Assembly: GCA_024734495.1 (NCBI GenBank)
Contig: JALMQS010000411.1
Span: 719,725 to 783,724, forward strand
DNA length: 64,000 nucleotides
Source: Forficula auricularia
Lineage: Eukaryota > Arthropoda > Insecta > Dermaptera > Forficulidae
Direction of reading: 5' to 3'
The notes under the pieces are model-generated. The model was not told where the DNA came from. It did not search any database and saw only the letters and a program-made list of their open reading frames with translations. Within the stretch, counting starts at the first letter, position 1. Each line of letters starts with the position of its first letter. The position numbers and the translations under genes are program-made. This document shows positions 3,981 through 62,135 of this stretch, one piece after another.

Positions 3981-3989
3981 AGGCTAGAA

Positions 3990-4525
3990 GGAGCACAGTA
4001 AGCTTGAGTTGTTTACCAAAAAAGAATTTAGTCTTTTTGATTTTAAGTCGATTCTTCCACGTTTTCAGTAGAGGTTGCCATTAATAGTCAAAACATCAAA
4101 AATGGAATACAATAAGGTTATTCCTCTAGTAGTAGATAAGAATCGATCGTTATTTTTGATTTTAAGTCGATTCCTCCATGTCTTCAGCAATGGTTACCAA
4201 TAATAATCGAAACGTCAAAAATCCAATCTAGAATTGTTATTCCTCAAGTATTAGATGAGAATCGATGGCTATTTTTGATTTTAAGTCGATTCTTCCATGT
4301 CTTCAGCAATGGTTACTAATAATATCCGTAACGTCAAAAATCCAATGTAGAATGGTTATTCTCCGACTATTAAATGAGAATAGATCATTATTTTTGAATT
4401 AAAGTCAACATGACCTGCAAATCGCAAGTGATATCTGATTAATAATAAAGGAATAAACATATTGATATTTCAAATGAATTTGGATAAAGTTTAGCATCGA
4501 TCCGTTGCAGTTTATTTTTATATCT
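3990..4525 (+). repeat. 119-bp minisatellite element, locus 1 (~3.5 units)
   Basis: Three to four tandem units, each containing TTTTAAGTCGATTC, CTTCAGCAATGGTTACCAAT and a GAAACGTC-like piece. They are followed by a unique tail (about 4,410-4,525) containing GATCCGTTGCAGTTTATTTT. The same units and the same tail, in reverse orientation, occur at 36,476-36,965, so the array belongs to a dispersed mobile unit rather than a local expansion. Helitron-like elements with internal minisatellites and Penelope-like elements are possible parents; no diagnostic termini are visible. Confidence 0.7.
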
Positions 4526-5300
4526 CATATAAGTATAATAGATATTACTATTATTTTCTCAATATAATTTATCTTAAGAAGTTTTGAAATCAAAAATACT
4601 GACCCGAAACGTCATTTTAATTCTCATATTTTGATTGATTTTGACTCGGAGCCAAAAAAGCTTGACCGCACCTGATCTACACCTAGATATTTAATATATT
4701 AAGATTAAACACTATTTTTGAATTGTAATATTTTTCAAAATTCAATCTTCCCTTCGAGGTAGCCTACTGAAGAAAAATAAAAACAAAAAGCAAATCAAAG
4801 TTGCCAATGGATATGTCTAATTTATATTTCAAAAGGATTCAGCCTTTTGATACTTGAGTTCGACACCCGAGGAACTCTTCTGAACTCTAAATTAAACACT
4901 TTCATACTGCCTTTAAATTAATTTTAATTATAGCAGACAACTCTCTCGATGTGCAAGCTGCTGATAAGAAAATTAAATGTCGCAATGTAGTGTTTTGATT
5001 TATCAAAATAAATTACATAACTTTATTTACTTTTGATATAAATTCAAGCCGGAGGAAAATATGAAAAAATTTTCAAGCTTGGTACGCTTTCTGAAAATGT
5101 TAGTAAATTGGCAATGTTTTGGCAGCGAACTTTGATCATATGTGTAGTTTAAAATAAAGTCAATTTTCCGATAGCAGCAGAGTTTTGTTTTAATGAAAAA
5201 ATGAATCAGTTTCTTCTATTTAATCCGAAATTATATATATAATAGTAACAATAATAGTAGGGAACTGGATAAAATTAAAAACACAGTTTTTTTTATTAAA
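4526..5300. other. AT-rich stretch without a supported gene
   Basis: No coding region, RNA gene or clear repeat was recognised here. Confidence 0.4.
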
Positions 5301-5307
5301 TGGGCCA

Positions 5308-5339
5308 GACGTTTCGTCAGTTTATTCTGACTTGCTCAG
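5308..5339 (-). ncRNA. Hammerhead-ribozyme-like motif (strong stem I)
   Basis: On the minus strand the order is CTGAGCAA, a 5-bp stem II (GTCAG/CTGAC), GAAAC, GTC. The flanks TGGACCA and TGGCCCA (5,340-5,346 and 5,301-5,307) pair as stem I, with one mismatch, and pairing continues beyond. Hammerheads have CUGANGA, stem II, GAAA, stem III, then UH at the cleavage site. Here stem III is reduced to the palindrome ACGU, which cannot close within one molecule but could pair between two. The CUGANGA box is imperfect (CTGAGCA) with one extra base before stem II. The motif shape is clear; ribozyme activity is inferred. Confidence 0.5.
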
Positions 5340-5394
5340 TGGTCCATTTTATCACTCTGTCAAAAAACATTATAGACATTTATTTATGTGTATT

Positions 5395-5540
5395 GTGTAG
5401 AATAGCATAGGTATAGTATTTCAGATTAAGAAAGTCGCGAGAGATTGTCACCTAGTAAATCTGAGGTGTTAAGATAATTTTTATTATATGTCAGAAGGGT
5501 AGTACTAACTCTTTCGGAAATTGAATGAGTATAATAAGTC
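5395..5540 (+). repeat. Half copy of foldback family B
   Basis: This stretch, with GAGAGATTGTCACC and a TCAGAAGGGTAGTA segment, matches by eye the left arm of the palindromic element at 13,875-14,062. It is diverged and I see no matching right arm. Confidence 0.45.
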
Positions 5541-5544
5541 AAAT

Positions 5545-7215
5545 AAGAACCAACCTCTCAATCATTCGTAATTTTTTCATCACTATTACCTTTTGAGCAT
5601 AGGATTCTTCGCTTGTCTTACACGAATTATTTTTGAAAAATAGAAAAATAGAAAACATTGTACAATTTAATTTTTTTCCCATTTCATTTTTGTAAATGTT
5701 CAGGACATTATAAATTATATAAAAATATTTTATTCCTTTTAATTATTATTAATTACTTATTTCTTTAATTTACTTAATTTATAGACAATACTATATATCA
5801 ACATTTATAATTTAAACAATAAATATTTTATTGTATATCTTATTTAGCAAATCATCAAAACTTTCCTTTCACACCGAAAAATGAAAAAAAATTATTAAAT
5901 TTAAAAAAACGCAGAAGTAAAAAGTAGAAAATAGTTACAATTTTATTTATTTTAAATTTTAAAGTTAATAAATACTTTCGACTTTTATCAGCTGTTGAAT
6001 CAAGTCGATCCCGCCCCATTTCCTACTAAGTCACAAGAACACATACTTTTGAATCTTTATTATAAAAAATCTAATTCTTAATAAATAATATGACTTGCGA
6101 TTTGAATTATTCTATTTCTTCACCTTGAGGTACAAAAAAGTAAATTGTATAAAAATTTCATCTGAATAATCTCACCTCTTAGTTATCATTAAATTATAGG
6201 TGATAATAAAAACTTCCATTACTTTAAAATTAATAACATAGCTTTGCATTCTCTACTCCATAATATAATAAACAAATTTAACATAATAAAAACTTCAATA
6301 TTTTTTTTGGATTCCATTAGTGAATTTGATAAACCATAATATAAAATCCGGTCAACCAGGTGGTCTGGAATTCTTTCGAGCTCCAGGCAGCAGCTCCAGT
6401 TATTATTCCCGGCCTGCCCACATCTTCCCTTTCACAACACCCCTATAATTAGATGAATATTCATCGAGCTGCTTAACTAGGAAATCGCTACTAATTCAAT
6501 ATTATGTCTTGGGAGAATTAGATCTTGAATTTGATAGATCAAATGACGCAGCCTACTCTAGAATAGATATTAAGTGGATTAAATTTAAAGTAATGGAATT
6601 ATATCATGTTCACGTCCAGACAATATTATTACTTTGATAGAAATCGCTTAATCGACAATTCTGAAAGAGCCGTTCGTCTCTTGGGAAGTCATTTAAATTA
6701 TGAATTAAATAGCCATCTAATTTGGCAGCTCTCCTGGGCTTCCTATCTCTCGAGTAGGTGAATGGAAACCACTGGATCTCGAATGGAGTCGAGCTGTGCT
6801 TTATCTCTAATGACATTAATTATAATGAAAGGCTTTATATTAGAATATTTTATATGCATCATATAAATATTTTTAGATTCACAAAAGTTTATCATCATCA
6901 TATGGGCATAAAAAGAAAAGTTAGCGAAAAAAATTGCGAAATAAAAAAGCACACGTCGAAACACCGGATTTTATTGAGGGATAATTTTAGGATGAGATAA
7001 GAAAGAAAAGGTAAAAAGGAAGGCCTATATTAAGATCCCACTAAAAACATAAATGTGAAAAAATTAGCCAATTTCTATCTACCACTTGATTAAGTCATCA
7101 AAAGATTAGAAATCTAAACGGTCCTATAAATCTCAAAATCTAAAAAATATTTTTATAAAAAAAATAAAATCGAATTCGAAAAATTAAATGCAACAAATAA
7201 AATAATATACTTAAA
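5545..7215. other. AT-rich stretch with a small GC-richer island
   Basis: Mostly featureless. A GC-richer island at about 6,340-6,480 (CAGGCAGCAGCTCCAG, CGGCCTGCCCACATC) stands out but has no usable open frame with splice sites that I can defend. The open frames around 6,600-7,000 overlap on both strands and look like composition artefacts. Confidence 0.4.
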
Positions 7216-8675: not shown

Positions 8676-9075
8676 GAAGGAGACAATAAAAGCGTGTGTT
8701 TCTGCTGGAATTATAAATTTTATTTATTTATAACGAGACTATAGTTTCGAGGCTTTGCCCTCCCATCAAATCTTATATGGATTCACAGGAATTAATTTAT
8801 GAATGAAAGGTTAAAATCTTTCATGTGATTAGGTTAAGAAATTGTACAGTGTGGGCAAGTTTCTTAACCTAATCACATGAAAGATTTTAACCTTTCATTC
8901 ATAAATTAATTCCTGTGAATCCATTGTAATAGACTGATGAAGAGGGCAAAACCCTCGAAACTATAGTCTCGTTATAAATAAATAAAATTTATAATTCCAG
9001 CAGAAGACATACCTTTTATTGTCTCCTTCAATATATAAAAATTCTGCTACTCTCGGCAAAAAAACTTTCAATTTA
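8676..9075 (+). mobile_element. Foldback element family A, copy A1
   Basis: This is a ~400-bp palindromic element. The left arm begins GAAGGAGACAATAAAAG; the right arm is its complement and extends about 45 bases further through CTGCTACTCTCGGCAAAAA to CTTTCAATTTA. That tail is absent from the left end. Flanks GATTATTTTC (8,666-8,675) and GAGTATTTTTC (9,076-9,086) look like an imperfect target duplication. The right arm carries a complete hammerhead-like motif (8,934-8,968); in the left arm the CTGATGA box is mutated. No coding sequence is present, so it depends on an autonomous partner, by architecture most likely a Penelope-like element. Confidence 0.75.
8934..8968 (+). ncRNA. Hammerhead-like motif in A1 right arm
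   Basis: CTGATGA is followed by one extra A, stem II GAGGG/CCCTC, GAAA, the palindromic mini stem III ACTATAGT (sharing the last A of GAAA), and C as the predicted cleavage-site base. Contiguous stem I pairing is short (AG/UC plus scattered pairs). All fixed core positions CUGANGA...GAAA...UC are present. Confidence 0.5.
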
Positions 9076-12645: not shown

Positions 12646-13044
12646 AAGTATGTGGATGAATATTTCTTATTGTTTTTGCTTGATTGTATGAGTTTTGTTT
12701 TTTATTGAATTAATTTAAATTTAAACCTGGTTCGTTTTTTACCCGGATATATAATCTATACCCTGTAAATATATAAAAATAAAATAGATATACCTAGTGT
12801 ATAACTAAGTATATATACGTATCAGCATCTTATTTAATAACTAAAATAAATAAACTTTGAGAGTTAATTAAATTACTAGACTAGGTAGGTTTCATATAAA
12901 TAAAACAAATATATTTTATGAGTTTTTTCTCGATATATACACCTATTTGGGGTTATCATCTCATCTTCAGATACACTTTTTTGTATATTTTTAATAAATA
13001 TTTTAGTTTACGGCAAAAAATAGATTTTATTAGTATCGCACTTA

Positions 13045-13314
13045 AAGGCGACAATAAAATAGTTTGTCTTCTGGGGGATAAATAAATTTTTAAATTTATT
13101 TATAACGGGACCATAGTTTCGAGGGCTTTGCCCTCTTCATGAAAGTTTCACACATCAATTCTTGTGAATCAATTGAAATAGACTGATGAAGAGGGCAAAG
13201 CCTCGTTATAAAAATAAATTTAAAAAAATATTTTTCCACCAGAAGACATTATTTTATTGTCTCCTTCAATTTATAAAAATTTTGGTACTTTCGGCAAAAA
13301 GAAACTTTCAATTT
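13045..13314 (+). mobile_element. Foldback element family A, copy A5 (degenerate)
   Basis: Both arms and the one-sided tail (ending CTTTCAATTTA) are recognisable. Flanks ATCGCACTT (13,035-13,043) and ATCGTACTT (13,316-13,324) form a 9-bp duplication with one difference. The right-arm ribozyme-like motif starts with CTGATGA at 13,183 but has lost the GAAAC-to-GTC part. The left-arm motif has lost CTG and carries GGTCC at the site. This is the most decayed member and can no longer encode an intact motif. Confidence 0.7.
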
Positions 13315-25351: not shown

Positions 25352-25635
25352 ATATGAAATATATTTAATTACGGTTAGTTTGCCATAAGAAACGGTTTAT
25401 CCTTGCCGTTACTCATCCCATGAGCCCCGCCCTTGGGGGGAGGGGGGTTCTGGAACTCCCCCCACCCATGGCTACGCCTTTGGGTATTTATATGTACAAT
25501 ATAATATTTAGTTAATAGATTTTTTATGGTAAATTGAAAGTTTTTGCCGAGAGTAGCAGAATTTTTATATATTGAAGGAGACAATAAAAGAGTGTGTCTT
25601 CTGCTGGAATTATAAATTTTATTTATTTATAACGA

Positions 25636-25670
25636 GACTATAGTTTCGAGGGCTTTGCCCTCTTCATCAG
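25636..25670 (-). ncRNA. Hammerhead-like motif in A2 left arm
   Basis: Minus strand: CTGATGA, extra A, stem II GAGGGC/GCCCTC with loop AAA, GAAA, palindrome ACTATAGT, then C at the predicted cleavage site. All fixed core positions are present. Confidence 0.5.
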
Positions 25671-25784
25671 TCTATTACAATGTATTCACAGGAATTAATT
25701 TATGAATGAAAGGTTAACATTTTTCATGTGGTTAGGTTAGAAATTACACAGGGTGGGCAAGTTAAGAATACATTGTAATAGACT

Positions 25785-25819
25785 GATGAAGAGGGCAAAG
25801 CCCTCGAAACTATAGTCTC
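25785..25819 (+). ncRNA. Hammerhead-like motif in A2 right arm
   Basis: Plus-strand counterpart of 25,636-25,670 with a perfect 6-bp stem II and the same short palindromic stem III. Transcription of the element from either strand would give one sense motif. Confidence 0.5.
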
Positions 25820-25891
25820 GTTATAAATAAATAAAATTTATAATTCCAGCAGAAGACACACTCTTTTATTGTCTCCTTCGATTTTTTATGG

Positions 25892-27835
25892 AATTTACTT
25901 CTGTGCGACGTTGATTTTTTTCATGTCAAAATCAAGGCCGTCCACCCACAGGTATTAAACCCCTGGAATAAACCATAACGTATATTAAAATAAGTGTTTC
26001 ACTAATAGAGAGCTTATGGCCTAAACATAGGATGGATTCACTACCTAAGTATTGAATTTTTAATTACAAGACAAACACACAAGATTATAGTTATTCCTCC
26101 AAATTGTTCCTGAAATAGATAATAAATCCCAGGGCAAAAAAGAATTACGGTTCTCAATTTGAATAAGCCAATATGTTATAAATTTGATTTACATCACGCG
26201 TGGGAAGTAACGCGAAATTCCATTGCCTATCGCTGAGCTCAATGTTGCGCTTCATGTACCACAAAGAGGGGGAATAGATTTAAATAATTTCCAATTTCAT
26301 TTCATAAATAACATTGAACTCGATTCGGAACAACACGAATCTTATTCCAAATTCATGGATATATTTTTAAAATAAAAAGTAGAAAAGAACGTGGAATAAA
26401 CGAACTGACTATTTACCATATGCCTGTGAATGTGTGAGGTCAAATTTTGTGTGCACTCTTCTCCTATCTTAAAAACCAATAAGAATTTCTTCTGATTAAT
26501 AATTTCATTAATTAGTTTTTTTCTTACTGTGTTTAAGAGATGAATATATTTTAATGGAAACGAATCAGTATAACCTGTGGTTTATTCTAATGCATTTTCT
26601 AAAATTGTTTATATATTAAGCTAACTTTTTTACCTACATCAGATTAGTTATTTGAAATAACAGACTATTTCTAAATAAAAGATACATTTTCATTTTTAAC
26701 TTTATATTATCTACGGTTGCAAAAGGAAGAAAAAGGATTGTTTGATCACAAGTCAATTTTGCATCCATTGTGTTGAGTGACAACAAGGGTGGGGCACCAT
26801 TTCGCCTTTTGTCTTTCTTTGCTTAAATTAAATAATTTGGTTCCTATCCAGATGAATTTGTGTGTGTGTTTAGGTCTAGACCTAGACAAACAACAAATAT
26901 GTCACTAATAAATATATTCCTTAAAGAACTCTATTCATAATTTTTTTTTCAGTTTGTATTCCCTTTTCTAATAAATATATCAGTTTATAAGTCTGAAAAC
27001 AAAATAAATTTCGGCAACGCTACTTGTTCTTTTAAAATAAGCCTTAATCAACAAACGATGTTTGTTTTCTCTTGACGTAAAAGTCGAAAGAGCGAGAATC
27101 CACAAATTATGTTGCCTGAGAAAACTTTCATCACATTTCTTTATTTACTAAACAAGGAACGGATTTTTATTCTAAAAAATTTACGGCTGAAACTTTCTTT
27201 CCATCCCCTTTGTTGATTTATAAAAAGCTGAGTTTTGGCTGATAAGAAAATATATTAAAATTCAGCTTTTTATATGGAAAATGTATGAATTTAAATGAAA
27301 AACAAATAACAATCTTAATCACTACTTTTTCTTCATTAAATGCATCTAGACTAAATTTAAATAGCATCTTTTTCTGGAGATAAGATCGTCATTATTATAT
27401 CCATCTGCTGATTATTGACAATACACTATAACCAAAACAACAACTCGAGGGTGCATAAATTAAAATTCTACTTTTTTGGACTATCTTGGCCAAATTTTAA
27501 ATAATTAGTCTTTAATAACACTCTAAAACTATTAGTGCATAATCAATTTCATGAAATAAAGTTTAATTGGTGCCAGGAAATATGTCCTATCCCTTGTAGA
27601 ACACTTTGTCTAGATGTTTTTCAGGCATTAGGAGATCTTTTAGACATCTTAAACATATCTTAAAGACAATAAGACCTTAATAAGTCATCTTCGAGAGCGA
27701 GTGTGCTATCTGGAATTAGGTCCTAATATTACTCATTTACTTAGAAACCTGTTAAATTATTAGCACAAAAATGAACTAACACAAAGATAAGATTAAAAAT
27801 TATAAAATAAAAATATATATATATATATCAGGGTC
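25892..27835. other. AT-rich stretch without a supported gene
   Basis: Nothing recognised apart from short simple repeats. Confidence 0.4.
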
Positions 27836-33226: not shown

Positions 33227-34480
33227 TTAGGTTGTTTCAAAAGTTTTGTCTGTTTTAATGTCATGTGTTTTTGTAGCTCCATATCTCAATAAATATTTAT
33301 TCTACTGTGTCGTGGTATATACTGATAGATAGAGAATTTTGTACTCTATACATTGCTGTTCATTTTTTTTCCAAATTTTAATTTTTTGCCTCTTTTCAGG
33401 TTATTACCATGTAATGTCGTTAAGCGATTTTCGTCCAATTTTTTTCTACGAATTCAAATTGAACCAAAGCGCTGCCGAAACAGCCCGAAAAATTAACCAG
33501 GGATTTGGCAATGATAGTGTTAATGAACGCACTGTTCAACGTTGGTTTGCGAAATTTCGTTCCGGAGATTTTAGCCTCGAAGATGAGCCCCGAAGTGGTC
33601 GACCAGTAATCCAGGACGAGGATTTGAGGACCCTGGTGGAGACTGACCCATCACAAACGGTGCGTGGGATGGCGGAAGAACTTGCCGTCAGCTCCCATGC
33701 GGTTTTTGATGGTTTAAAACGTATTGAAAAGGTCGAAAAGCTCGAAAAGTGGGTGCCCCACGATTTGAACGATCGACAGAAATTGTCACGTTTCGAGGTC
33801 TGTTCTTCTTTGCTTTTGCGCAACCAAAACGATCCTTTTTTGGATCGGATCGTCACGTGTGATGAAAAGTGGATCCTCTACGACAACAGGAGACGTCCAG
33901 GACAGTGGTTGAACACCGATGAGCCACCCAGGCACTTCACAAAGGCGAAAACCCACCAAAAAAAGACCATGGTTACTGTATGGTGGTCAACGGCTGGTGT
34001 GATTCACTATAACTTTCTGCAACTGGGCCAAATCATAACAGCAGAGTCCTATTGTGAGGAAATCGACTGAATGTACCGAAAATTTCGTCAGCTGCAGCGG
34101 CACTGGTCAACTGAAGAGGTCCGATCCTGCTCCACGACAACGCCGCACGTTTCACAAATCACCGTCCGAAAATTAAACGAATTGAGCGTCGAAGTTCTGC
34201 CTCACCCACCATACTCTCCAGACCTCTCGCCAGACCGACTACCATCTTTTCAAGCACTTCGATAACTTTCTCACCGGTAGAACCAGGACCAGGCAAAAAC
34301 GGACCTTGTCGACTTCATCGAATCCCGAGCACCCAATTTTTATGCCGACGGAATTAATAGACTTGTGTTACGTTGGGAAAAGTGCACTGATTCAAATGGC
34401 GCTTATTTCGATTAAATTGAATAAGTATTCAGTGAGATATTACAGTTTAAACTAGACTCATAGTTTGTTGTTTATATATG
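33227..34480 (+). mobile_element. Mariner element (cecropia/Hsmar1-type), inactive
   Basis: The left terminus TTAGGTTGTTTCAAAAG follows a TA dinucleotide, as for Tc1/mariner insertions. TTAGGTTG with a downstream CAAAAG is characteristic of this mariner group. I could not find a convincing right inverted repeat after the stop codon, so the right boundary is approximate. The transposase gene inside is frameshifted. Confidence 0.75.
33414..34415 (+). pseudogene. Mariner transposase, frameshifted
   Basis: From the ATG at 33,414 the reading frame shows the paired helix-turn-helix region ([38 protein letters not shown]), the linker WVPHDL and the first catalytic aspartate in [11 protein letters not shown] (about 33,857). 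The frame stops at 34,068. The second catalytic block (LLHDNA, near 34,130) and the YSPDLSP block (near 34,215) are in shifted frames, and the C-terminal end with NGAYFD-like residues ends at the TAA at 34,413. At least three frameshifts separate these parts. Total length (~1,000 bp) is near the ~345-codon family size, so decay is by small indels and not large deletions. The motifs place it with the cecropia/Hsmar1 mariners. Confidence 0.85.
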
Positions 34481-35152: not shown

Positions 35153-35727
35153 GTGAGTTACCTTCCAATAAAAATATTTGAATATAATTTAGGGGTTCCA
35201 ATCGATGTTGCGCTGCGCTCCTACAGCCAGCGCACTCTTTCGAGTTCACCCTTAACTAACAAATATTTAGCCACACGTTAACGCCACCCAATGGCAGAAG
35301 CAAGCATTAGGGCGAAAATTTGTACTATGATATTTAAGCAAATTTCAAAAATAAATAAATAAATAGTTATTTAATACGACCAGAGATATTGATACATCCC
35401 AAAAGAATTTTCTTTTCTTATCCTTGTTTAGAAATATTTTAGACGTGAATAATATTCTTCTTTCTTTCTGTCTCTGAGTTTGTGCCTCTATCTGGATTTA
35501 GATACTCAAGAGCGGAAAAATTTATTGAACTGATTAGATTTTGGGATTTCTATCTTCAGATGTTCCAGGTGAAAATGTAATAATTAAAAAAAATCAAATT
35601 GTGTTATTTAACAATTATAGATATAAATTAAATTGAAAATTTTTGTGCCGAGGGTAGCAGAATTTTTATATATTGAAGGAGACAATAAAAGAGTGTGTCT
35701 TTTGCTGGAATTATAAATTTATAACGA

Positions 35728-35762
35728 GACTATAGTTTCGAGGGCCTTGCCCTCTTCATCAG
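35728..35762 (-). ncRNA. Hammerhead-like motif in A3 left arm
   Basis: Minus strand: CTGATGA, A, stem II GAGGGC/GCCCTC with a changed loop (AAG), GAAA, ACTATAGT, C. Core complete. Confidence 0.5.
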
Positions 35763-35839
35763 TCTATTACAATTGATTTCCACGTGGAAATTTCTGCTTT
35801 CCATTCATACATTAATTCCTGCGAATCAATTGTAATAGA

Positions 35840-35874
35840 CTGATGAAGAGTGTAAAGCCCTCGAAACTATAGTC
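35840..35874 (+). ncRNA. Hammerhead-like motif in A3 right arm
   Basis: CTGATGA, A, stem II GAGTGT/GCCCTC (two mismatches relative to other copies), GAAA, ACTATAGT, C. This copy is in the sense orientation of the SAM gene. Confidence 0.45.
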
Positions 35875-36475
35875 TCGTTATAAATAAAATTTATAATTCC
35901 AGTAGAAGACACACTCTTTTATTGTCTCCTTAAATTATAGATATAGCTAAAATTAGCAGCAATGAATTGTATTATTAAGCTGCATTTTAAGCTAGGTCAA
36001 ACCGTATGCTGTAAAAAATTGCTAACTCAGTTAAATTTGTAAAGCAAAACGTGTTTTGAATTTTTTTTCGCTTTTTCCTCCATTCTGATAACTATTTCAA
36101 AGATTCTGTCTTGATTATCAGTTAAATATAAATCCCGGTCAAGTTGCTAGCTTATCTTAATAGGTACATTAAATTTTATTCCGGTTTTAAACAATTTTTT
36201 TTTAAGTTTTCAAAATATCTGTTTCTCTGCTTTTAAAGAAAATAATGCTATAATGAATTTATTATTGAAAAAATAATTAAATCAAAAGAAACTGTTTCGC
36301 TAAAAATTAATTCTTCTCACGAAAATACACTAAAAATAATTTTAATTGTAATGAGTATTACCCGGGTGTTCTCGCTGGAGGCAAAACATTTAAATTTACA
36401 CGAAAATTAAATTTTTTCTGCAAATTCGTTTTTCGAAATATTTGGACCGTTTATTTTGAAAGTGGGTATGTTCAA

Positions 36476-42079: not shown

Positions 42080-42530
42080 AGATTCCAGTTCCTTGAAATC
42101 ATAGGGACAAACGTATTGGCGAATGACCAAACCTTCGAAACTATAGTCTCAAACAAATACATTACACATATAGGTACAAATTTATATTTGAAATATTCAT
42201 GTATATTAAAGGAGATAATCAAAGAGTGTGTCTTCTGCTGGAAAAATAAATTTTTATTTTGTTATAACGAGACTATAGTTTCGAGGGCTTTGCCCTCTTC
42301 ATCAGTCTATTACAATTGATTCACATGAATCGACTTTCAATTTAATATATGTTTATTTGCATCAAGCAGAGGACAGCCTTATTGATTTTTCTCTTTATAT
42401 ATACCTACATATATTTATTATATTTAGATTCCAGTTCCTTGAAATCATAGGGACAAACATATTGGCGATTGATCAAATCTTCGAAACTATAGTCTCAAAC
42501 AAATAAATTATACATATGCATTATTTTAAA
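42080..42530. repeat. Foldback family H fragments and family A copy A7
   Basis: Two direct copies of CCAGTTCCTTGAAATCATAG...CGAAACTATAGTCTC (42,080-42,175 and 42,428-42,510) flank a single-arm family A copy (about 42,199-42,341). The family H pieces retain GAAACTATAGTC but have lost a proper CTGANGA. GCATCAAGCAGAGGACAGCC at 42,358 matches the arms of the H element at 60,426. Confidence 0.6.
42271..42305 (-). ncRNA. Hammerhead-like motif in A7 (single arm)
   Basis: Minus strand: CTGATGA, A, stem II GAGGGC/GCCCTC, GAAA, ACTATAGT, C. Core complete although the element has only one arm. Confidence 0.5.
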
Positions 42531-51357: not shown

Positions 51358-52647
51358 TTAAGGAGAAAGTTTACATAGACCTAATTTTGAACATAAATAT
51401 TCAAATTTACATTTTACTAATCCCTTAGTGAATATATCGGCCTCTTGATTATTTGATTCAATATATTCCAATCTAATGGAACCTTCCTTCAATTTATCGC
51501 AGACAAAATGGTATTTAAGGTCTATATGTTTTACTCTTTTATTATTTTCAGGTGTTTTTATTAAGGAAATGCATCCCTGATTGTCCTCGTAAATTAAGAT
51601 CTCTTGAGTTTTCATGTTGAAATCAAGCAAGATTTTCTGAGTCCATAGACTTTCTTGTACTGAATTACATAGTGCTATAAGTTCTGCTTCAGTGCTTGAT
51701 AGAGCAATACAGTTTTGTTTTTTAGTTCCCCACGAGATAATATTACCAAACACCTTAATACAATATCCACTTACCGATTTTCTATCGTGAATATCCCCAC
51801 CCCAATCGGCATCTACAAAACAAGATAATGGCTGTTCAATAGATTGCCTGTGATAAATTAAATTTAGGTCCATTGTACCCTTTAAATATCTTAGGACTCT
51901 TTTTAAATAAGTCCACACATCCTGATTATTTTTATCTTGATATCGACAAAAATAATTAAGCGCATAACTTATATCAGGCCTAGTTCCCAGCATTAAATAC
52001 ATTAAACATCCAATTAATTCTTTCACCGGTTTATCTGCAACAGAACTTCTTGGTGTCAATTGTAGTTTAGGGTCAATGGGTGTAGAACAGGGGTTACATG
52101 ATGCCATATTGAACCTCTTTAGTAAACTTAAAATATATGTTCTTTGGTTAATTTTCAAAATTCCATTACTTCTGTCATAGTTTATTTCTAGACCCAAAAA
52201 ATTATTTAATTCTCCCTTATCTTTCAAGTCAAACTCACTGGATAACATTTCTTTATATTTTTTAATTATTTCTAAATTTGGGCCACAAATAATTATATCA
52301 TCAACGTAAATTAAAATATAAATTGAATACTCATTAGTATTTTTAAAATACAAACAATAATCATTTTCGGACCTGGAAAATTCTAATTTTAACAAAAGGT
52401 TATTAATTTTATCATTCCAGCATTTTGCTGCTTGTTTTAAACCGTATAATGACTTATTTAATTTTAAAACATACTTTTCTTCACACGTGATTCCTTTTGG
52501 AGGTGTTATATATACGGGTTCACTAAGTTCGCCATTCAGAAACGCAGACTTTACATCAAGCTGTGAAAAAAAAATTTTTTTGGTTACCAACAGAAAGTAG
52601 TGTTCGAATTGTAGATAATCTTGCGACAGGAGAATATATATTATCAA
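51358..52647 (-). pseudogene. Copia pol, part 3: reverse transcriptase and RNase H
   Basis: Shows QLDVKSAFLNGEL, LNKSLYGLKQA, the catalytic LIYVDDIIICG, LKDKGELNNFLGLEI, then the RNase H motifs DADWGGD, ALSSTEAELIAL and KHIDLKYHFVCD, ending with a natural stop. The first ~30 residues of the open frame (before SQLDVK) are not part of the protein; they are the out-of-frame end of part 2. It would copy element RNA into DNA inside virus-like particles. It is listed as a pseudogene because the preceding frame is shifted; each motif is itself intact. Confidence 0.85.
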
Positions 52648-53536
52648 AATCGAAATTCTTTTGCAAGAATCCTCTCGCGACTAACCTAGCTTTATATCTA
52701 TCTTCTACGCTCCCCTCTAAAGGTTTATAAGAAAAAACCCATTTTGTATCAATAATTTCGACATTTTCAGGTTTAAGAATTTTTTCCCAAGTTTGATTTT
52801 TCTTTATGGAATCTATTTCTTTCTCTATGGCCTTTAGCCACAAATCTTTATCTTCTCTATTATTTATGGATTCAAATTCAGTTGGCACTTGATCAACATA
52901 TGACATAGCATCAAATGCCATATACATTTCAAAATCATTAAATTTCTCTGGTAATTTTGGATTCCGTTTAGGCCTAGTATTATAACTTATATCATTACTT
53001 AAATTATTTAGGTTTTCCTCATTACTCTCGTTTACATTATTTTCGCTTCCCTGTTCATTACTTTCATTATAAATTTCATTACTTTCATTATAAATTTCAA
53101 GAAGCTCCCCACTATTAATTTTATGGTCATTAAAATAGAAATTATTTTCATCAAATGAAACATTTCTAGATGATATAATTTTTCTGTCTTCGATATTCCA
53201 TAAACGATAGCCTCCCGGAGCATAGCCTAACATAATACATTTATTTGTTTTCTTATCAAATTTGTTTCTGAATGCATTTGGAATATGTGCATAAGCGGTG
53301 CAACCAAAAACTCTTAGATTACTAACGTTAGGCTTTCTTCCAGACCAAATCTCGGCTGGCGTTGTATCGTTTAAATTTGAACACGGGCTTCTATTAATTA
53401 GATAAGTTGCGTTTAAAATGGCTTCATCCCAAAATATTTTTGGAACGCCTGATTCATTCAACATAGTCCTAGCTTTTTCTACTACTGTTCTATTAAACCT
53501 CTCAGATTTCCCATTTTGTTGGGGTGTATACGGCAT
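52556..53536 (-). pseudogene. Copia pol, part 2: integrase C-terminus and start of reverse transcriptase
   Basis: Opens in the integrase core with TPQQNGKSERFNRT, which carries the last acidic residue of the DDE triad, and continues with FWDEAILNATYLINRSP and LRVFGCTAYAH. A low-complexity acidic and Asn-rich linker with a repeated IYNESNE follows, then TKWVFSYK and YKARLVARGF from the start of the reverse transcriptase. It stops shortly after STIRTLLSVGNQ at the A/T homopolymer. Confidence 0.85.
52566..52581 (-). other. Frame break 2 in copia pol
   Basis: An A9T7 tract on the plus strand (T run then A run in the sense direction) is the point at which the conserved reverse transcriptase motif passes from one frame to another. 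A one-base length difference would explain it. Confidence 0.7.
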
Positions 53537-55359
53537 TGTGTAATTAATAATTGTCCCATTTTCTTTGCAGAAATTTTTAAAATTATTTGAAATATATTCC
53601 CCCCATTATCACAAATTAACATTCCAACTTTTCTCTGGAACTTAGTTTGCACGATATTTATATATTCTTTAAAATAATCGATGACTTGACTTTTTTCTTT
53701 TAAAATATAAACATAAGTGAAATGAGAAAAGTCATCTATGAAAGTGACAAAATAGTTTCCTCCGAGATTAGAGTTGGGTTTTATTGGTCCGCATACATCT
53801 GAATGGATGATTTCTAGAATATTTTTACTGTGAGTTCTTGTTCCGAATGGCAAAATACTCATTTTACCATTTACACATGGTTCACAAAAATTAGGTTTGC
53901 TGAATTTAAAACTTTCTATGCCATCAACCATTCTTTTATTTTTCAATTTTTCTAAGCCTGAAAATCCAATGTGCCCGAATCTACGATGCCAAAGATTTGT
54001 TTCATTTTCCGTTTGATTAAGTTGACATTCTTTATTATTTAATTGAAATTTAATTTTGTACAAATTTTCCCTTATTCCGATACCAATTAATCTTTCATTA
54101 TTATATATTTTTGTCTCTCCGTTTTTAAAAGTTATTGTCATTCCTGCCATATCCAATTTTTTAACTGATAGTAAATTTTTTCTTAAATTAGGAACATATA
54201 ATACGTTTTTCATAATATAATTTACGCCATTTATACTTTTAATTAAAATATTTCCTACACCTAAAGCAGTTAAATAATCTCCATCTTTTGCAATAGCAAT
54301 TTTTAAAGGATCTTTTAAAATCATCATGTCTGAAAAATATGCTTTATTATTAACTAAGTGGTCGGTACAACCTGAATCTATACAAAATAATATCTCACCA
54401 TCTCGTTCAAACATTGGTTCCTCTTGAAATGTGTTAAGTGTTTCTGGTTCCTCTTCTTGTTCCATAAAATCAGTTTGATATTCATTTTCTTGGTGCTGGA
54501 ATGATCCGCGGCTGGGGCCTTGCTGCCATTGTAATCCTCCTGGATTATATCTTTGTTGCCGGTATGTAGGTTGATTGCTACCTCGTTGAAATCGGCCACG
54601 TGATCTTGGATTATATCCTTGTTGGATTGGAAGTTGATGCTGAAGATTTCTCCCTCTTTGGCCGACGCCTCGATTGCTTCCTTGATTTTGGCAAAATCTT
54701 AGAATATGACCCTGGATTCCACATCCATAGCATATTATCGGTCTCCTACTTGATATCATAGCTGCGTTATTGATACCTGTGCTTGTTGCATCCTGAGGAG
54801 AAGTATTTATTCCCGAATCGGTATTCGATCGTTTCTCCTCGATGAGCAATCTCGCTGTTAAGTTGAGAATATTTTTATTTTCGGCATTCACGGATTCCCA
54901 TGCAGAAATGAAAAATCGATATTTATTTGGTAATGAAGAAAGAATTTTCGTCATTACCATCTGATCAGATATTTCTTGATCCTGTTTTGCCATTTGGTCA
55001 GCCATATTCTCAATTTCACAAATATGATGACTTATTCCTTTATCAGCATACTTGTAATCAAAGAATCTTACCTGCAAGAGATATGCGGAGAGATCAGATT
55101 TTTGATCAAAAAGCACATGGAGCTTTTTCCACATCTCTGCTGCAGATTTGCATCTCATTATATGCTTAATGAGTTTTTCATCCACCATAGAGACGATGCA
55201 GGCTTGAGTTTTCGTGTCATTTTTGTCGAGCGTTTCGTGCGTTTCTAGGGCATTCGTGTACCCTCTGTTTTTTAAATTCACCTGCATTTGAAATTTCCAT
55301 TCTTCCCAATTATCTTGGCCTCTCAATTTTCCAAAGGCAAATTCTTGGAATCGATCCAT
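53482..55359 (-). pseudogene. Copia gag-pol, part 1: Gag, protease, integrase N-terminus
   Basis: 625 codons from an ATG preceded by a poly-A tract (sense). Residues 1-200 form the copia-type Gag; residues 210-223 are the zinc knuckle CYGCGIQGHILRFC. A Gly/Gln/Arg-rich stretch follows. The aspartic protease motif CIDSGCTDHLV is at about 326-336. The integrase zinc region has WHRRFGH and CEPC (457-495), and the integrase core has HSDVCGP (519 on), FIDDFSH (540) and CDNGG (583). After residue ~587 the frame is shifted relative to the family and the last ~38 residues are unrelated. Gag forms the particle, protease processes the polyprotein and integrase inserts the DNA copy. Confidence 0.9.
53599..53604 (-). 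other. Frame break 1 in copia pol
   Basis: A run of six C (six G in sense) follows the integrase CDNGG motif. Downstream of it the conserved integrase sequence is in a different frame, consistent with a one-base length difference in the run. Confidence 0.7.
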
Positions 55360-60425: not shown

Positions 60426-60655
60426 ATTGAGAGAAACAAAGAGGTTGTCCTCTGCTTGATGCTGTTCCCGTGAAAAATAATATTTATAATTAAAAAGACT
60501 GATGATGAGGGCCAAGCCTTCGAAACTATAGTCTCAAACAAATAAATAATATATATGTGTGTATGTTTATTTGTATCAAGCAGAGGTCAACCTCTTTGTT
60601 TCTCTCTATGAATTAACAACTCTGGTATTCTCGGCAAAATAAAAAACTTTTCAAT
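60426..60655 (+). mobile_element. Foldback family H element
   Basis: Arms AACAAAGAGGTTGTCCTCTGC and GCAGAGGTCAACCTCTTTGTT enclose a hammerhead-like motif. A one-sided tail (GGTATTCTCGGCAAAATAA...CTTTTCAATTA) is clearly related to the tail of family A although the arms are different. TATATTTTATAT at 60,414-60,425 and 60,656-60,667 is a 12-bp target duplication. It starts only ~32 bases after a splice donor. Confidence 0.75.
60499..60533 (+). ncRNA. Hammerhead-like motif in family H
   Basis: CTGATGA, extra T, stem II GAGGGC/GCCTTC with one G-U pair and loop CAA, GAAA, ACTATAGT, C. The stem II change relative to family A (CCCTC to CCTTC) keeps pairing. Confidence 0.5.
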
Positions 60656-60781
60656 TATATTTTATATCATTAAAAATATTTCGAATGAAACTGATGCCTT
60701 TTTATTAATGTATATTCTTGAAGGAGACAATAAAAGAGTGTGTCTTCTGCTGGAATTATAAATTTTATTTATTTATAACGA

Positions 60782-60816
60782 GACTATAGTTTCGATGGCT
60801 TTGCCCTCTTCATCAG
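60782..60816 (-). ncRNA. Hammerhead-like motif in A4 left arm
   Basis: Minus strand: CTGATGA, A, stem II GAGGGC/GCCATC with one mismatch, GAAA, ACTATAGT, C. Confidence 0.4.
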
Positions 60817-60890
60817 TCTATTACAAAGGATTCACAGGAATTAATCTATGATATATATAAATTAATTCCTGTGAATCCTTTGTAATGGAG

Positions 60891-60926
60891 CTGATGAAGA
60901 GAGCAAAAGCCATCGAAACTATAGTC
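60891..60926 (+). ncRNA. Hammerhead-like motif in A4 right arm
   Basis: CTGATGA, A, a weakened stem II (GAGAGC/GCCATC), GAAA, ACTATAGT, C. The base before CTGATGA is also altered (GGAG), so stem I is probably lost. Confidence 0.35.
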
Positions 60927-61045
60927 TCGTTATAAATAAATAAAATTTATAATTCCAGCAGAAGATCACACTCTTTTATTGTCTCCTTCAATATATAAAA
61001 ATTCTGCTACTCTCGGCAAAAAACTTTCAATTTAATTTATATTCT

Positions 61046-61948: not shown

Positions 61949-62135
61949 TTTATAATTCATAAATTAATTCCTGTGAATCCATTGTAATAGACTGATGAAG
62001 AGGGCAAAGCCCTCGAAACTATAGTCTCGTTATAAATAAATAAAATTTATAATTCCAGCAGAAGACACACTCTTTTATTGTCTCCTTCAATATATAAAAA
62101 TTCTGCTACTCTCGGCAAAAACTTTCATTTTAAAA
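61949..62135 (+). mobile_element. Foldback element family A, copy A6 (single arm)
   Basis: Only the right arm and tail are present (AATTCATAAATTAATTCCTG to GGCAAAAACTTTCA). This is a 5'-truncated form, as often produced by target-primed reverse transcription. Confidence 0.7.
61992..62026 (+). ncRNA. Hammerhead-like motif in A6
   Basis: CTGATGA, A, perfect stem II GAGGGC/GCCCTC with loop AAA, GAAA, ACTATAGT, C: identical to the A2 motifs. Confidence 0.5.

Follow-up and report, generated by a model that had tools for sequence, protein, structure and literature searches.

Palindromic Penelope-like inserts with a variant hammerhead motif in Forficula auricularia, and an excess of insert ends at the predicted cleavage site

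Introduction

The window analysed here, a 64,000-nt stretch of the Forficula auricularia genome, contains several short palindromic repeats whose arms carry a motif resembling the hammerhead ribozyme. The locus thereby raises the question of which element gave rise to the repeats, how closely the motif follows the hammerhead, and whether its activity has left a trace in the genome. Hammerheads have been known in Penelope-like elements (PLEs) for about a decade, and small hammerhead variants of PLEs were reportedly described by Cervera and de la Pena in 2014 and by Lunse, Weinberg and Breaker in 2017. Whether PLE hammerheads cut in vivo, and to what purpose, is a standing question. According to the accessible part of one account, all PLE sequences available at its time had minimal hammerheads lacking helix III (PMC6155905). 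In Poseidon of Anolis carolinensis (PAc), cleavage was protein-dependent in vitro and dispensable for insertion, and RNA-seq yielded no ends at the cut (PMC11167929). The new observation of the present work, a pile-up of inner insert ends at the predicted cleavage site in two element families, addresses this standing question.

Hammerhead-type motifs in the window

The hammerhead-type motif in the window is real and above chance: searches for CTGATGA-N16-GAAA with at most one mismatch returned 13 matches, nine of them exact, against 1.88 +/- 1.49 in shuffled sequence. Re-reading confirmed all nine sites of the initial annotation (8934, 25636(-), 25783, 35728(-), 35840, 42271(-), 60782(-), 60891 and 61992), whose coordinates refer to C3 for plus-strand copies and to C17 for minus-strand copies; the copy that it had placed at 25,785 is genuine, with its true start at 25,783. 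Its description of stem II, the extra base, the ACTATAGT palindrome and C17 was likewise accurate, as was the placement of the motif in both arms of the palindrome, where 25574-25682 and 25771-25879 are complementary over 109 nt with zero gaps or mismatches. Stem II is imperfect in the copies at 35840, 60782 and 60891. To these sites we add a tenth copy from a sister family at 60499 (+), damaged copies at 13109(-) and 8737(-), and two copies, at 42137 and 42483, that retain the 3' half only (GAAACTATAGTC). The motif-bearing features, assigned to PLE families A and B, are as follows.

8676..9062: family-A head-to-head palindrome (A1); plus-strand motif intact at 8934-8968, minus-strand motif damaged near 8737; tail on the right arm
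13042..13300: decayed family-A palindrome; minus-strand motif damaged, C17 at 13109; tail on the right arm
25535..25882: family-A palindrome (A2), the copy under study; tail on the left arm
25636..25670, minus strand: hammerhead-type motif in the left arm of A2, C17 at 25636
25783..25817, plus strand: hammerhead-type motif in the right arm of A2, C17 at 25817
35642..35936: family-A palindrome; motifs at 35728-35762 (minus) and 35840-35874 (plus); tail on the left arm
42080..42171, plus strand: family-B motif fragment, 3' half only, GAAA at 42137
42195..42330, minus strand: single family-A arm for which no partner was found; motif at 42271-42305
42426..42517, plus strand: second copy of the family-B 3'-half fragment, GAAA at 42483
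60434..60639, plus strand: family-B fragment with a tail-like end; motif at 60499-60533, stem II GAGGGC/GCCTTC
60718..61029: family-A palindrome; motifs at 60782-60816 (minus) and 60891-60926 (plus), both of the variant ending in CCATC; tail on the right arm
61955..62127, plus strand: single family-A arm with a tail; motif at 61992-62026, predicted cut 62026|62027

Other repeats in the window include a GC-rich palindromic repeat (GGGGGGTTCTGGAACTCCCCCC) at 25430-25490, just left of A2, and two elements named from their translations: a copia-like LTR retrotransposon with three overlapping or adjacent ORFs (51358-55359, minus strand) and a mariner-like transposase fragment (33339-34070, plus strand).

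The core of the motif comprises CUGANGA and GAAA, and its predicted cut site is GUC, a form of NUH. An extra base lies between CUGANGA and stem II, the position at which a canonical hammerhead has stem II directly after A9. In our base-pair reading, stem III spans 2 bp in a monomer and 8 bp in a dimer, and stem I has 2 bp, with a possible 6-bp outer helix in family A. The covariance-model check that had been proposed for the window produced no Rfam hammerhead match at gathering score, and none of the nine matches obtained in 25500-25950 at E values up to 10 was a hammerhead; those near the motif were low-score microRNA, sRNA and other matches, all under their gathering scores. Because of the extra base before stem II and the lack of an Rfam match, we class the motif, as judged from its sequence, as a variant rather than a canonical hammerhead. 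Among viral contigs, the core pattern had two matches, both judged on reading to be chance.

Linkage of the motif to Penelope-like elements

A search of the genome for GIY-YIG domains gave at least 150 matches (the best 150 of 3,423 candidates were scored, and all 150 matched). In 18 of 30 GIY-YIG loci a GAAACTATAGTC-type motif is present when a single mismatch is allowed, counting one locus with the motif on the opposite strand (L051) and one in which C3 is changed (L049). A structure scan of the 30 loci that left the extra base optional recovered CTGANGA-stem-GAAA with a stem of at least 5 bp in 23 loci (28 matches); the extra base was present in all 28 and lacking in five weaker matches with stems of 3-4 bp.

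The fullest context for family B comes from L061, a tandem PLE array with a 2,909-bp period, pseudo-LTRs and 858-codon open frames, in which the family-B motif follows each ORF and thus lies between ORFs. The protein of this array (P0005) joins a reverse transcriptase domain (RVT_1, 1.6e-16) to a GIY-YIG domain (8e-6), the combination expected of a PLE. Among the best 7,994 candidates scored, it has at least 111 relatives at E <= 1e-10, those named coming from insects, flukes, frogs, a fish, Hydra, rotifers and a springtail; comparison with solved structures returned distant reverse transcriptases only. In family A, the window's own motif form and 3'UTR lie downstream of a GIY-YIG ORF in L046 and L057, the family-A ORFs seen being C-terminal GIY-YIG pieces alone. 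Proteins of the two families share 48.75% identity over 160 aa, and within 450 nt around the motif clear plus-strand DNA similarity is limited to two blocks, the motif itself (72 columns, 79%) and the 3'-end region (67 columns, 75%).

The linked GIY-YIG/RT ORFs and the 3'UTR shared with L046 and L057 bear out the Penelope-like origin put forward in the initial annotation, and a reduced stem III together with PLE association is what characterizes the small hammerheads of PLEs. The palindromes of the window are evidently pairs of 5'-truncated PLE 3' ends joined head to head, and the copies in the window have the look of inactive 3' remnants.

Genome-wide abundance and covariation in stem II

The exact family-A motif has 6,369 copies in the 1.06-Gb genome (3,128 + 3,241 by strand), against 0 matches for the reversed pattern. 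A third type, CTGANGA-N-G...CGAAACGTC, gave 1,022 matches (reversed control 0) with a search pattern that itself imposes the extra base. Dropping the extra base from the search pattern yielded 218 matches but not a clean control: on visual reading, the 100 matches listed seem to be members of the same family in which the extra base is G or indels are present. Among 100 listed motifs, neighbours within 1 kb are arranged head to head in 15 cases, on the same strand in three and tail to tail in none.

Stem II carries paired changes across elements, reading GAGGGC/GCCCTC in family A, GAGTGC/GCACTC in L057, GAGGAC/GTCCTC in L051 and GAAGAC/GTCTTC in family B. For the CGAAACGTC type, the 63 distinct sequences found in 100 matches listed out of 1,022 contain 41 double-change cells against 16.4 +/- 4.2 after shuffling (0/500 as high), and their covariation score is 0.402, compared with 0.192 when shuffled (0/500) and 0.065-0.340 when slid. 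Stem II is thus kept by compensatory change. The initial annotation had staked its reading on covariation of this stem among genome copies, and such covariation is present. Its wider claim that the elements encode PLE-type hammerheads is partly supported, by PLE origin, stem II covariation and the pile-up of ends described below. For the dimer pairing that it envisaged, what the sequence shows is a self-complementary stem III strand.

Anatomy and origin of the palindromes

Arms were aligned to L046 (C3 at 301, C17 at 335), counting those in the window and in the loci used that reach position 390 or beyond, with L007 and L010 left out as overlaps. The resulting 82 arms comprise 66 in 33 head-to-head pairs and 16 unpaired. 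Exactly one arm is tailed in 32 of the 33 pairs, one arm ending near 400 and the other near 441, and in the remaining pair neither arm has a tail. On the outer side, 13 of the 33 pairs have exact repeats of 12-15 bp; at the five window pairs no exact outer repeat of 12 bp or more was found. A tail on one of two inverted pseudo-LTRs together with a target-site duplication is the anatomy of PLE inserts. The inner ends of paired arms are variable and unequal. Mean divergence within pairs is 0.043, compared with 0.053 for random pairs, and none of 2000 shuffles was as low (22 pairs).

Priming on both target strands is the best reading of these palindromes in our analysis, preferred because, in vitro, both target strands are extended by the PLE protein of Anolis, and because two internal RT start sites delimit the tail of PAc (PMC11167929). 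The alternative is snap-back self-priming of one cDNA, as proposed for Adineta vaga PLEs in the accessible part of that report (PMC3846280). The closer likeness of paired arms than of random pairs is in keeping with it, although a similar likeness is expected of arms copied from two units in the same tandem RNA; a snapped-back copy should, moreover, end like its model, yet the ends differ in 32/33 pairs. We therefore regard snap-back priming as improbable. Foldback- or MITE-type DNA transposons that resemble hammerheads by chance could account for the long near-perfect inverted repeats and for the direct repeats at their outer ends. Such elements would be at odds with the unequal inner ends and the covariation of stem II, and they are contradicted outright by PLE ORFs linked to the same 3'UTR and by the single tail per pair; this candidate was rejected as hardly credible. 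With two-strand priming as the preferred reading, the one-tail rule (32/33) constrains how two target strands pick RT start sites.

Predicted RNA folding

Since a palindrome has one motif on each strand, a transcript holds a single sense copy, which could pair with its own antisense arm. Two sense copies in one RNA would need tandem PLE arrays such as L061. A cis-acting ribozyme inside the palindromic copies was considered and rejected. The window copies are brief pieces in which one arm pairs with the other, and we do not take them to cut. For a dimer, nearest-neighbour energies computed with stem I scored as nested favour an AGACU/AGUCU helix over a double hammerhead, at -44.1 vs -29.4 kcal/mol in family A and -26.5 vs -15.8 kcal/mol in family B. 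In these predictions, the AGACU/AGUCU helix would block the ribozyme core.

Insert ends at the predicted cleavage site

Should the ribozyme cut, cDNA copied from the severed RNA is bound to begin at TCGTT in family A and at TCAAAC in family B. Junction patterns accepting any inner junction between 326 and 338 (L046 numbering) matched 1,351 sites in family A (reversed control 7) and 634 in family B (control 1). Junction positions were read from 100 listed matches per family, taken first in contig order, and clean counts were obtained by setting aside 24 (A) and 22 (B) rows resembling indels of the intact motif. Among the matches listed, the junction falls at 335|336 (GTC|TC) in 33/100 raw and 29/76 clean rows of family A, and at GTC|TC in 28/100 raw and 26/78 clean rows of family B; every other junction position listed has at most nine clean rows in both families. 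A simulated null with AT-rich flanks places about 9-10% at the cut site, giving p of about 1e-8 or less. After merging by eye the arms of the same palindrome, about 25 cut-site junctions are left per family; of the 29 family-A cut-site rows, 9 have an opposite arm that begins there as well.

Genome-wide counts, which required four mismatches upstream and compared positions 335 and 331 only, gave 274 junctions at 335 vs 86 four bases upstream at 331, a 3.2-fold excess set against a null ratio of about 1.2. This contrast is weaker than in the 100-row lists, and some 10 of the 86 junctions at 331 are, by eye, one-base deletions of the intact motif. Exact 12-17-bp flanking repeats were found at six of 12 loci with a 335 junction. 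At 331, the recurrent joints TATG, TATA and AAGA before AGTCTCG form a second preferred junction class.

The pile-up of inner ends is indirect evidence for cutting by the ribozyme in vivo and for reverse transcription of the cut RNA. The motif could instead be a relic that no longer cuts; reverse transcriptase that halts at stable RNA structure, or a preference in joining, would then produce the GUC|UC pile-up. A competing stable fold is predicted, as noted above, and a reverse transcriptase that pauses at structured RNA might imitate some of the pile-up; joints recur elsewhere too (TATG, TATA and AAGA before AGTC, and GGAA rows at 338|339), and the published PLE hammerhead is without RNA-seq ends at its cut (PMC11167929). 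However, the excess coincides to the nucleotide with the cut that the initial annotation had forecast, and does so in two families whose 3' flanks differ; in family A, the first helix of the competing fold would lie farther downstream, at about position 344. The maintenance of stem II by compensation also argues against a relic, an explanation that we consider rather unlikely.

On balance, we lean towards a reading in which PLE hammerheads cut in vivo and cut RNA is a regular template for reverse transcription, so that the genome would hold a nucleotide-exact record of cleavage. The ribozyme would then help decide where copies start while being dispensable for insertion, and the one-base-longer core would be normal for these PLEs. 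Most inserts span the cut site; cutting is therefore dispensable for insertion and the template is chiefly uncut RNA, which agrees with the Anolis work (PMC11167929). The thousands of inserts amount to a natural experiment in which the 5' ends of templates are readable at single-base resolution without an RNA sample, and the same readout could apply to any PLE-rich genome.

A model for insert formation and comparison with known elements

The overall explanation that we consider likely starts from the observed anatomy, PLE linkage, covariation and end pile-up. The repeats would be inserts of a Penelope-like element, family A, whose 3'UTR/pseudo-LTR carries a self-cleaving hammerhead variant after the RT/GIY-YIG ORF. 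This variant would consist of CUGAUGA, one extra base, a 6-bp stem II, GAAA and the self-complementary ACUAUAGU in place of stem III, with the cut after C17 of GUC. It lies some 65 and 105 nt upstream of two insert 3' ends, which we take to be two reverse-transcription start sites. Uncut RNA would serve as the main template, most inserts reading through the ribozyme, and a sizeable minority begin precisely at the cut, for which an already-cut RNA would have been the template, the cDNA having run off its new 5' end. Both target strands would be primed, and the joining of two truncated cDNAs head to head would yield a singly tailed palindrome accompanied by a target-site duplication. Within this explanation, we infer self-cleavage as the cause of the pile-up, priming on two strands, and any role of a dimer or a protein.

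As far as the accessible parts of published descriptions extend, family A resembles the small hammerheads of PLEs in its location in the pseudo-LTR, its minimal stem III, and its succession of CUGANGA, stem II and GAAA. It differs in the extra base, which the published consensus may share, and in the 8-nt self-complementary strand of stem III. Like the elements described here, PAc is a tandem PLE with a hammerhead at the pseudo-LTR/ORF junction and internal RT starts bounding its tail; in contrast to the paired arms here, which end at different sites, it has no strand difference in RT start site (PMC11167929). The accessible part of the report on Penelope families of Adineta vaga describes head-to-head inverted pseudo-LTRs, one 31-bp tail and palindromic junctions, as here, along with target-site duplications of 8-10 bp. 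The families there have few copies, the paper nowhere uses the word hammerhead, and its accessible part does not compare inner ends to a ribozyme site (PMC3846280). Metazoan retrozymes, in the part of their description available to us, are likewise non-coding repeats with type I hammerheads and cleave as dimers where stem III is weak; they are tandem direct repeats (PMC7229834), whereas the copies in the window come from the 3' ends of a coding PLE and are inverted. Our search for earlier reports of insert ends at a PLE ribozyme site, which covered titles and abstract openings with subscription journals mostly outside its scope, found none.

Related arrays and lineages

Two further occurrences of such motifs were recovered elsewhere in the genome. 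At L011, positions 3985-5972 hold a family-A motif in each of five units repeated with a 422-bp period; the spacer is unlike the PLE 3'UTR and the array ends in a palindrome, so that it looks like a retrozyme-like tandem array. A further PLE lineage (L033, L034, L041, L047, L048 and L056) carries CTGAAGA-A-GCTGC...GTGGC-GAAACGTT downstream of GIY-YIG.
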